Assembly: GCF_025717065.2 (NCBI RefSeq)
Contig: NZ_JAOVZO020000001.1
Span: forward strand, 372,001 to 436,000
Direction: 5' to 3'
DNA from: Tahibacter soli
GTDB taxonomy: Bacteria; Pseudomonadota; Gammaproteobacteria; Xanthomonadales; Rhodanobacteraceae
DNA: 64,000 nt
Shown here: positions 20,987 to 23,546 of the stretch, piece after piece
Numbering within the stretch: position 1 is the first letter of the stretch
Layout: every line of letters starts with the position of its first letter
Position numbers and translations under genes: made by a program
The notes under the pieces: generated by a model
What the model was told of the DNA's origin: nothing
Seen by the model: the letters and a program-made list of their open reading frames with translations, nothing else
Databases searched by the model: none

Positions 20987-22342
20987 ATGCCGTTCATTCC
21001 GCACTCCGACGCCGACGTCAAGGCGATGCTCAAGACCATCGGCGCGTCGAGCATCGAAGACCTGTTCGACGAGATTCCGGCCGAGCTGAAAATCGGCGCG
21101 CTCGAGCAGGTGCCGCCGGGCCTCAACGAAATGGAGATCTCGCGGCTGATGAAGGAGCGCGCGGCGCAGGACGGCACGCCGCTCAACTTCGCCGGCGCGG
21201 GGGCGTACGAGCATCACATTCCGGCCGCGGTGTGGACCATCGTCACGCGCGGCGAGTTCTACTCGGCGTACACGCCGTATCAGGCCGAGGCGAGCCAGGG
21301 CACGCTGCAGCTGATCTACGAATACCAGACGATGATGACGCGCCTGACCGGCATGGACGTCAGCAACGCGTCGCTGTACGACGGCGCGACGTCGCTCGCC
21401 GAAGCCGTGCTGATGGCCGAGCGCTGCGCGAAGAAGGGCCCGCGCAAGGTGCTGGTGCCCAGGAGCGTGCATCCGTCGTACCGCAAGACGTTGCACACGA
21501 TCGTCGACCAGCAGGACATCGAAGTCGTCGAGATCGACGTCGATGCGACCGGCGGTCATCTCGATCCGGCGTGGCTCGCGACGCAGGACTTCGGCGACTT
21601 CACCGCGCTCGTCGTGCCGCAGCCGAACTTCTTCGGCGTGCTCGAAGACGTCGACGCGCTGACCGATTGGGCGCACGCCAAGGGCGCGCTCGTCATCGGC
21701 GTCGTCAATCCGCTGTCGCTCGCGGTGCTCAAGGCGCCGGGGCAGTGGGGCAGGACCGGCGCCGACATCGTCTGCGGCGACGGCCAGCCGCTCGGCGTGC
21801 CGCTGTCGTCGGGCGGTCCGTACTTCGGCATTCTCGCGTGCAAGAAAGAATTCGTGCGCCAGATGGCCGGACGCATCGTCGGCCGCACCACCGATCTCGA
21901 CGGCAAGGAAGGTTTCGCGCTGACGCTGCAGGCGCGCGAGCAGCACATCCGCCGCGCGAAGGCGACGTCGAACATCTGCACGAATCAGGGTCTGCTCGTC
22001 ACCGCCGCGACGATCCACATGTCGATGCTCGGACCGCAGGGCGTCGAGCGCGTCGCCGCGGTATCGATGGACAACACGCGTCGCCTGCGCGACAAGCTGT
22101 GCGCGATTGACGGCGTCGAAGTACTGTTCGCGCGGCCGTTCTTCCATGAAGTGGCGCTGCGTCTGCCCAAGCCCGCGCACGACATCGTCGAGCGTCTCGC
22201 GCACGAAAACATCGTCGCGGGTTTCGCGCTCGGCGAGGAGTATCCCGAGCTCGGCGACGCGCTGCTCGTATGCGCGACGGAGACGAAAACGGAAGGCGAT
22301 CTCGATCGCTTCGCCGCCGCGCTCGCCGCCGCGCTGCGCTGA
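20987..22342 (+). CDS. gcvPA: Glycine dehydrogenase (decarboxylating) subunit 1
   Basis: 451 residues, matching the alpha subunit of the split glycine-cleavage P protein rather than the roughly 950-residue fused form. It starts with [19 protein letters not shown] and has the conserved [16 protein letters not shown] and [20 protein letters not shown] stretches. The PLP lysine lies in the beta subunit of split enzymes, so this chain is inactive alone. No gcvPB follows; the next gene is metJ. The partner must be elsewhere in the genome. A stable hairpin lies about 80 nt after the stop. Confidence 0.95.
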
Positions 22343-22424
22343 TCGACGCGCGATCGCGTCCGCCGATCGCCTGCGCAGTTTTGCGCATTTCGCGCTTCGC
22401 GACGTCCGTGCGCGAGGCGAACGA

Positions 22425-22453
22425 CGAACGCCGCGACCCTGTCGCGGCGTTCG
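22425..22453 (+). terminator. Hairpin downstream of gcvPA
   Basis: A perfect 13-bp GC-rich stem (22425-22437 with 22441-22453) has a 3-nt loop. Only a weak T-run follows (CTTTA), so termination strength is uncertain. Confidence 0.5.
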
Positions 22454-22651
22454 CGCTTTAGGCGCGGTTCATCGTCTCGCGACGCGTGCGGGCGCTTGCG
22501 CGGTTCGTGCGCGGGCCATGCCGCTTCCGCGCTGCGGCATTGTGGCCGAATGGCGGAAAGAAACTTGTGGATTCGCTCGACCCCGCGCCGTTGCTGGCGT
22601 TGCGCGGCGTCGCGTTTGCGGCCGTGCGCGCGGCGTATGCGAATTTGCGAT

Positions 22652-22675
22652 ATCCGTTTAGACGTCTGGACGGCT
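22652..22675. promoter_or_regulatory. Met-box array, MetJ operator
   Basis: A perfect consensus met box AGACGTCT lies at 22660-22667. The adjoining 8-mers in phase match 6 of 8 (22668-22675) and 5 of 8 (22652-22659). MetJ binds two or more tandem met boxes cooperatively. The array lies about 175 nt upstream of metJ, which suggests autoregulation, but it is about 105 nt upstream of the best promoter, so the regulated start may be different. Confidence 0.65.
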
Positions 22676-22781: not shown

Positions 22782-22810
22782 TTGACACTGCACAACGACA
22801 GGAATAATTT
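22782..22810 (+). promoter_or_regulatory. metJ promoter
   Basis: A perfect -35 TTGACA (22782-22787) and a -10 TAATTT (22805-22810) have an ideal 17-nt spacer. It lies 32 nt upstream of the metJ start, in one of the few AT-rich patches of the window. Confidence 0.7.
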
Positions 22811-22842: not shown

Positions 22843-23355
22843 ATGACGGCAGCTAAGTACATCGCCCCGTATGTCGAACACGGGCAGAAGGCCGAGGCGG
22901 TCAGAAAGATCACGGTCTCGATCCCCACACACGTACTTCGACTCCTCTCCGACGAACGAACGCGGCGGCAGGTCGCCAACCTCCGCCACGCTACCAACAG
23001 CGATTTGCTGTGCGAAGCGTTTCTGCACGCTTTTACTGGGCAACCACTGCCAACTGACGAGGAGCTAAAACGTATGGCCATGAAGAAAGCAACCGCGAAG
23101 AAACCCGCCGCCAAGAAAGCCGCGGCGAAGAAAGCCACCGTGAAGAAGGCTGCGCCGGCCAAGAAGGTCGCCAAGGCCAAGGCGCCGGCAGCCAAGAAGG
23201 TTGCCGCCAAGAAGCCGGCGGCCAAGAAGGCTGCGGCGAAGAAGACCACTGCCAAGAAGGCCACCGCCAAGAAGGCGACTCCGGCGAAGGCCGCTCGCGC
23301 GACGAAGGCTGCGAAGCCGGCCGCCAAGCCTGCTGCGAAGCCGGCCGCGAAGTAA
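22843..23355 (+). CDS. metJ: Methionine repressor MetJ fused to a histone-H1-like Lys/Ala tail
   Basis: 170 residues from the ATG at 22843, with GGAG 4 nt upstream; the longer TTG frame adds nothing. Residues about 1-78 are clear Met[21 protein letters not shown], the ribbon-helix-helix, then [15 protein letters not shown] and [16 protein letters not shown]. MetJ binds S-adenosylmethionine and represses methionine genes. After LKRMAMKK the protein continues without a stop into about 90 residues of KKAAAKK/PAKK repeats, like histone H1 or AlgP tails. E. coli MetJ instead ends in a short acidic helical segment. The tail should bind DNA non-specifically and could increase operator affinity or compact DNA (inference). 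The tail DNA is repetitive and prone to slippage. Confidence 0.93.
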
Positions 23356-23444
23356 CACCGCTACACCGCTACAAGAAACAAACGCAAGAACGGTACTTTC
23401 CCTCCCTGCGGTGCCCAGCGCAGGGAGAGGACTTGCCGGATAGA

Positions 23445-23469
23445 AACGCCGCCTCTAGCGGCGTTTTTT
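23445..23469 (+). terminator. Rho-independent terminator, about 90 nt after metJ
   Basis: Arms AACGCCGC (23445-23452) and GCGGCGTT (23458-23465) have a 5-nt loop and a run of six T. Confidence 0.88.
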
Positions 23470-23546
23470 GTTGGTGCCGAGCCGGACGCTTTTCGAGCAC
23501 GCCTCCCAAGCACTAGCATCCGACTATTCGTCGTCGGAGAAGTCTC

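Follow-up and report, generated by a model that had tools for sequence, protein, structure and literature searches.

A MetJ repressor gene of Rhodanobacteraceae fused to a Lys/Ala tail, with a conserved junction element and a complementary 3' hairpin loop

The fused gene and its surroundings

The window, a stretch of 64,000 nucleotides from Tahibacter soli (contig NZ_JAOVZO020000001.1), contains a metJ gene located behind gcvT, gcvH and gcvPA and followed by a TonB-like frame, the neighbors being named from our reading of their frames. The gene joins a MetJ repressor domain to a histone H1-like tail in a single frame (Table 1). An initial annotation, made from the letters alone, had described one continuous frame of this kind, and the analysis bears it out: the frame is open throughout, the MetJ models match above their cut-offs and the tail residues form K/A/P repeats. 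The Pfam model MetJ (PF01340) matches residues 4–82 with 134.4 bits (cut-off 25), and the NCBIfam MetJ equivalog (NF003622) matches residues 4–83 with a score of 137.9 (cut-off 110). Residues 4–79 can be aligned without a gap to the solved chain of E. coli MetJ (1cma), and the alignment shows that the ribbon-helix-helix core and the SAM-pocket residues are present in the window protein; the pocket was assigned from residues that we take to be SAM contacts. The arginine after the threonine in the motif ERTRRQ, presumably one of these contacts, is retained in the window and is replaced by His or Tyr in five of 32 loci (L014, L021, L023, L024, L026). The gene is the sole metJ of its genome. An AlphaFold model of the fusion was too poor (mean pLDDT 50) and was left unused.

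Table 1. Positions of the features at the metJ locus, numbered within the window.
Feature	Position	Strand	Remarks
Tandem met boxes AGACGTCT GGACGGCT	22660..22675	+	A weaker box may precede at 22652
Promoter-like TTGACA-17 nt-TAATTT	22782..22810	+	TTGACA conserved in aligned upstream regions
metJ-H1-like fused open reading frame	22843..23355	+	170 aa, ATG 22843 to TAA 23353–23355, 17.9 kDa
MetJ domain, ribbon-helix-helix repressor	22843..23073	+	Residues 1–77; the C-terminal part present in E. coli MetJ is missing
Junction element conserved at the nucleotide level (GCT TTT ACT GGG CAA ... GAG GAG ... ATG)	23029..23076	+	Synonymous identity 0.84 / 0.89
CTGGGC, proposed 5' pairing site	23036..23041	+	31/32 copies; exact reverse complement of the 3' loop GCCCAG
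GAGGAG, proposed internal Shine-Dalgarno	23059..23064	+	9 nt before ATG 23074; 31/32 copies
Proposed internal start ATG (Met78)	23074..23076	+	31/32 copies, GTG in the other; second ATG at 23080
Histone H1-like Lys/Ala tail	23074..23355	+	9.2 kDa (residues 78–170); separate translation from ATG 23074 is probable as well
3'UTR hairpin, 9-bp stem, loop GTGCCCAG	23402..23427	+	Covarying stem; GCCCAG at 23413–23418
Terminator-like hairpin ACGCCGC-CTCTA-GCGGCGT, then T run	23446..23470	+	Sequence reading; absent from the list of the consensus scan

The C-terminal region of MetJ past approximately residue 82 is absent, with the profile matches ending at position 82 of 97 in the Pfam model and 85 of 105 in the NCBIfam model. 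The portion of E. coli MetJ past residue 80 or so is exchanged for 93 residues rich in Lys and Ala. In nearly all copies the tail opens with Met-Ala after EEL(R/K)R. It scored 28.4 against the H1-like HC2 model (PF07382, cut-off 40) and 30.7 against the Burkholderia H1-like model (NF038053, cut-off 80), both below threshold, and "H1-like" refers here to the composition of the tail and not to family membership. At least five other frames of the window's genome end in Lys/Ala tails (L002, L032, L034, L035), with topoisomerase I, Ku, a small frame of 140 aa and a phasin-like protein among those identified by sequence reading; this rules out that the fusion tail is the only clear H1-like gene of the genome. 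Such tails are a common extension in this genome, and the RNA arrangement is not known for the other frames; the fusion stands out by having MetJ as its partner and by this arrangement.

Bacterial proteins with histone-like tails have been described before; one of them is PhaF, the N-terminal domain of which is not a MetJ-type repressor. According to excerpts of PMC9239181, AlgP and PhaF of Pseudomonas resemble the window protein in that a Lys/Ala/Pro (KPAA) tail, predicted to be disordered, is attached to a folded N-terminal domain. Peptides from the AlgP tail bind DNA, and the N-terminal domain of AlgP is described in the same excerpts as alpha-helical; unlike that of the window protein, it is not a MetJ-type repressor.

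Met-box-like 16-mers (at most four mismatches) were found at nearly the same place 5' of metJ in 25 of 32 loci, representing 16 of 21 genera, as compared to 0–2 loci in each of 20 shuffles. When the window's genome was searched for 16-mers made of two met boxes (at most two mismatches), 16 strand-wise matches were obtained at 11 places. The reversed control pattern gave six matches, and several of the 11 places are thus surely due to chance. These places include the regions upstream of metJ, metX-metB, metE, a leuA gene and a gene of the LysR type; for metE and metB, the loci contain only part of the frame and the scores fall below the full-length cut-offs, and metX and leuA pass a cut-off. 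Because met-box-like sites are kept 5' of metJ and also occur at methionine genes, as expected for a protein resembling E. coli MetJ, the MetJ half very probably functions as a repressor and regulates its own gene. The sites at the LysR-type gene, metX, leuA and metE (L119, L120, L124, L127) are located unusually far, 144–379 nt, ahead of the presumed starts, a distance suggestive of long leaders or of wrongly placed starts. A perfect met box, TAGACGTCTA, was also observed 3' of the stop of a canonical metJ in a genome of family f9 (L050), where it may serve to control the gene that follows.

At the window's metJ, the met boxes lie 106 bp 5' of the conserved TTGACA, a far spacing, and the promoter-like sequence is absent from the list of the consensus scan. 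Rfam returned no match in the window at the gathering score, which excludes a match to a known riboswitch or small RNA at that level, and a looser search of eight loci produced sub-gathering matches only. Below threshold, a match to BTH_s1 was observed between gcvPA and metJ on the minus strand (22339–22484 in the window, L001:997–1142; 29.3 bits with a cut-off of 74, E 0.00026), and one to anti-hemB over the 3' hairpin in L001 and L023.

Distribution of the fusion

MetJ was identified in 145 of the 398 genomes sampled from the order, 125 of which are Rhodanobacteraceae; by our own count, all 125 genomes of this family in the sample contain it. The initial annotation had called for a search for the MetJ-plus-tail architecture across the order, and the architecture proved to be family-wide in Rhodanobacteraceae. 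The MetJ-containing frame measures 137–399 aa in 124 of the 125 genomes, the remaining one (G385) being cut by a contig end, as compared to 80–143 aa for the 20 MetJ copies from three other families. No such Lys/Ala tail was present in the 13 copies from family f9 and the single f12 copy that were read; in the latter (L027), the frame stops where the tail begins in the window protein. Genera with the fusion include Dyella, Rhodanobacter, Luteibacter, Frateuria, Dokdonella and Tahibacter. Two congeners of the window's organism, T. aquaticus (L174) and L003, match it in tail length and in the 3' hairpin.

Conservation across the family rules out an assembly error or a missing stop, and no stop between the domains, the concern raised at the outset, interrupts any of the family copies whose sequence was read as far as the tail. 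One of the 124 genomes, a Luteibacter MAG (G394; L250/L159), carries a TGA within the MetJ domain, and its junction element, internal ATG, tail and 3' hairpin are intact. A single-base error in the MAG and a real loss of the MetJ half are equally likely explanations.

The junction element and the 3' hairpin

The last MetJ codons are conserved at the nucleotide level. Synonymous pair identity in these codons was 0.84, as compared to 0.35–0.60 in the other metJ blocks (21 genera, L014 included), and 0.89, as compared to 0.48 elsewhere, among 23 representatives with L014 left out. The canonical MetJ of family f9 (13 copies, mostly from one genus) showed no rise, with 0.39 in the same codons versus 0.48 elsewhere. 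Protein or profile scores retrieved 32 distinct fusion copies, and in 31 of them CTGGGC, GAGGAG and an in-frame ATG occur together with GCCCAG 3' of the gene. The one exception, L014, is without all four features and has GTG at the start position. We analyzed 51 family copies altogether, the other 19 of which were hand-picked because they were known to have the junction element and hence test the 3' loop only; GCCCAG was found in the loop in each of these 19. By our own count, the exact element pattern is present at the fusion in 119 of the 125 Rhodanobacteraceae genomes. Of the remaining six, five deviate from it by one letter or a few and retain CTGGGC (L011, L025, L055, L061, L251), and the sixth is the genome of L014.

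The internal ATG is present in 94 of 95 distinct leaders, a set that was partly selected by pattern. The tail starts at 39 or 42 nt in these leaders, and the reading frame is kept through this 3-nt difference in junction length, suggesting selection on the fused protein itself. The distance from GAGGAG to the ATG is 12 nt in 83 of the 95 leaders, which is long for Shine-Dalgarno spacing. In folding predictions, GAGGAG is largely base-paired when the full transcript is considered (0.10 unpaired), and between 0.04 and 0.65 unpaired in its local context (20 loci). Two other readings of the element were rejected: a local GGCA/TGCC hairpin acting as a switch is broken in g9 and g16 (CTACC), and a sigma-54 site was dropped because the spacing, by our own reading, varies between families.

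The hairpin behind the stop codon displays in its loop the exact reverse complement of CTGGGC, so that six base pairs could form across approximately 370 nt. GCCCAG and the overlapping CCCAGC are the most widespread 6-mers of the 3' regions, occurring in 101 of 102 distinct ones (identical regions of 200 nt were counted once). In 100 of these 102 regions, a GCCCRG is enclosed in the loop of a stem that measures 6 bp or more, as compared to 0–6 in 20 shuffles. A pattern scan yielded at least 118 stretches, of which 80 loci were used; the pattern demands CTGGGCAA and GAGGAGCT and thus tests the 3' side only. GCCCAG was present in all 63 usable loci among the 80, the other 17 having been dropped for lack of a MetJ frame before the element or of 200 nt behind the stop. 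The stem varies on both sides: across 59 distinct rows, pairs 1 to 8 are each formed by at least two types of Watson-Crick pairs. These rows include a chance hairpin of L014, which has no GCCCAG, and do not include L065 (loop kept, stem irregular). The window's genome has a single exact copy of the hairpin, and places with two mismatches are without GCCCAG, which rules out a repeated element. Behind the canonical metJ of family f9, GCCCAG was found in none of the 12 readable loci (of 13).

The two complementary hexamers have changed together in one instance. Among 105 distinct cases, 102 combine CTGGGC with GCCCAG, two combine CCGGGC with GCCCGG, both from family f4, and the last is L014 with CTGGTC, counted here with a chance GCCCGG; within Rhodanobacteraceae the pairing hexamer is invariant except in L014. 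For the f4 leader, the predicted duplex amounts to -14.7 kcal/mol with its own loop and to -9.8 and -10.7 in mixed pairs. The f1 leader, with -13.0 for its own loop and -12.5 for the f4 loop, barely tells the loops apart, and the predicted discrimination is therefore one-sided. As the long-range covariation consists of one compensatory event, found in two genomes that belong to the same genus, and a shared loss in a single genome, the sequences provide strong support for pairing but not proof.

The compensatory pair belongs to genomes in which the tail gene stands alone. Three genomes, G038 and G054 of family f4 and G029 of family f6, have no MetJ match and contain a free-standing Lys/Ala gene behind gcvPA, with the element and the hairpin (L028/L067, L097, L070); the TonB-like neighbor follows in G038 only. 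In G038, the leader reads PGKQLPT in frame behind a stop, likely a remnant of the MetJ end TGQPLPT, and the corresponding stretch of G054 is interrupted by a stop (GQ-stop-LPT, from sequence reading). The G029 leader reads SGQPQPTDLERS followed by a stop, and this genome keeps CTGGGC/GCCCAG and GAGGAGCTGAGAC out of frame with the tail start. Most simply, the fusion would have arisen before MetJ was lost, with the RNA element retained; a free-standing tail gene may instead have preceded the fusion. A small frame, MRTGLGNLNPLT, was also read behind GAGGAG in the G029 leader (L070), where it ends just ahead of the tail start; it is a possible upstream open reading frame.

One product or two

We lean towards the reading that the gene has two products, the MetJ-tail fusion and a free histone-like protein starting at Met78, the latter tuned by pairing between the 5' and 3' sides of the RNA. 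Transcription would start from the upstream promoter near the met boxes. The long product would be a MetJ repressor that binds met boxes with SAM and touches the flanking DNA via its tail. On the same mRNA, a second translation start at Met78, with GAGGAG and ATGGC, would produce a free H1-like DNA-binding protein. CTGGGC, just upstream of this start, would pair with the loop GCCCAG of the hairpin behind the stop codon, and the contact would place the mRNA's 3' end next to the internal ribosome site and tune the amount of the free protein. One bacterial gene giving long and short isoforms with different roles has reportedly been described for AerR, the short isoform of which is said to arise from an internal start.

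The features also fit control of the fate of the mRNA alone. The pairing would then protect the repetitive mRNA or mark it for processing, or serve a trans-acting RNA or protein, and the tail would be produced mainly as part of the fusion. The pairing site does not cover the proposed Shine-Dalgarno, since CTGGGC ends 17 nt upstream of GAGGAG; this position agrees with mRNA control, and it leaves both an increase and a decrease in translation possible. A comparable arrangement is described in excerpts of PMC3868564 for icaR of Staphylococcus aureus, another repressor gene, where a 3'UTR motif is complementary to the 5' side of its own mRNA and the pairing also creates a substrate for RNase III. 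The icaR motif differs in that it pairs with the Shine-Dalgarno region and lowers the output of the repressor, whereas the pairing proposed for metJ is upstream of the internal GAGGAG, inside the coding sequence, and involves the loop of a conserved hairpin. Two observations make mRNA control alone rather unlikely: GAGGAG and ATGGC are kept together with the element, and in the genomes without MetJ the element sits in the leader of the tail gene, right before its start.

Less likely still is that only the fusion matters, with the tail raising the nonspecific DNA affinity of MetJ and with the internal ATG and GAGGAG as by-products of the junction. The frame is kept in the family copies read, even across the change in junction length, the met boxes are kept, and, since at least five further proteins of the genome end in Lys/Ala tails, such tails may be plain DNA-binding extensions. 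On this account, however, the synonymous-site conservation is unexplained, and so are the 3' hairpin with its complementarity, their shared loss in L014 and the conservation of the element where MetJ is gone. The repressor with a DNA-coating tail proposed in the initial annotation survives in part: the in-frame fusion is conserved and its MetJ half very probably binds met boxes, but a coating tail does not explain why the tail has its own ATG, GAGGAG, leader element, 3' hairpin and free-standing relatives. It is highly improbable that ribosomes are stalled or shifted in frame by the element where the MetJ domain ends, which would set the ratio of short MetJ to fusion: AGA encodes 18 of 18 arginines at one codon, and stops in both other frames lie within the element by sequence reading, but family f6 keeps the same nucleotides outside a long frame, and codon meaning is thus not the whole reason for their conservation.

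In the open-licence literature on MetJ or on histones of Rhodanobacteraceae, we found no metabolite-controlled, sequence-specific repressor fused to a histone-like tail and fixed across a family. Leyn et al. 2014 (PMC4239095), in the excerpts available, report MetJ for six groups and list no MetJ for four Xanthomonadales genomes, for which SamR is described; the name Rhodanobacter does not occur in that article. In excerpts of PMC12146267, the MetJ protein of Rhodanobacter R12 is up with nitrate and the methionine enzymes are down. Neither set of excerpts mentions a tail on MetJ.

Returning to the two-product reading, annotation of these genes as plain MetJ may hide a second protein. The RNA pairing is directly testable, as it involves six base pairs approximately 370 nt apart, for which both a compensatory change and a loss occur naturally. 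More tentatively, an H1-like protein would be made from inside a methionine repressor gene, in an amount set by a kissing contact of a 3' hairpin with an internal ribosome site, and the element and stem-loop would represent a new family of RNA elements on the mRNA of a bacterial histone-like protein. Since the gene has met boxes of its own and the long product carries a DNA-binding tail, the supply of SAM would then set both the methionine genes and the coating of the chromosome.
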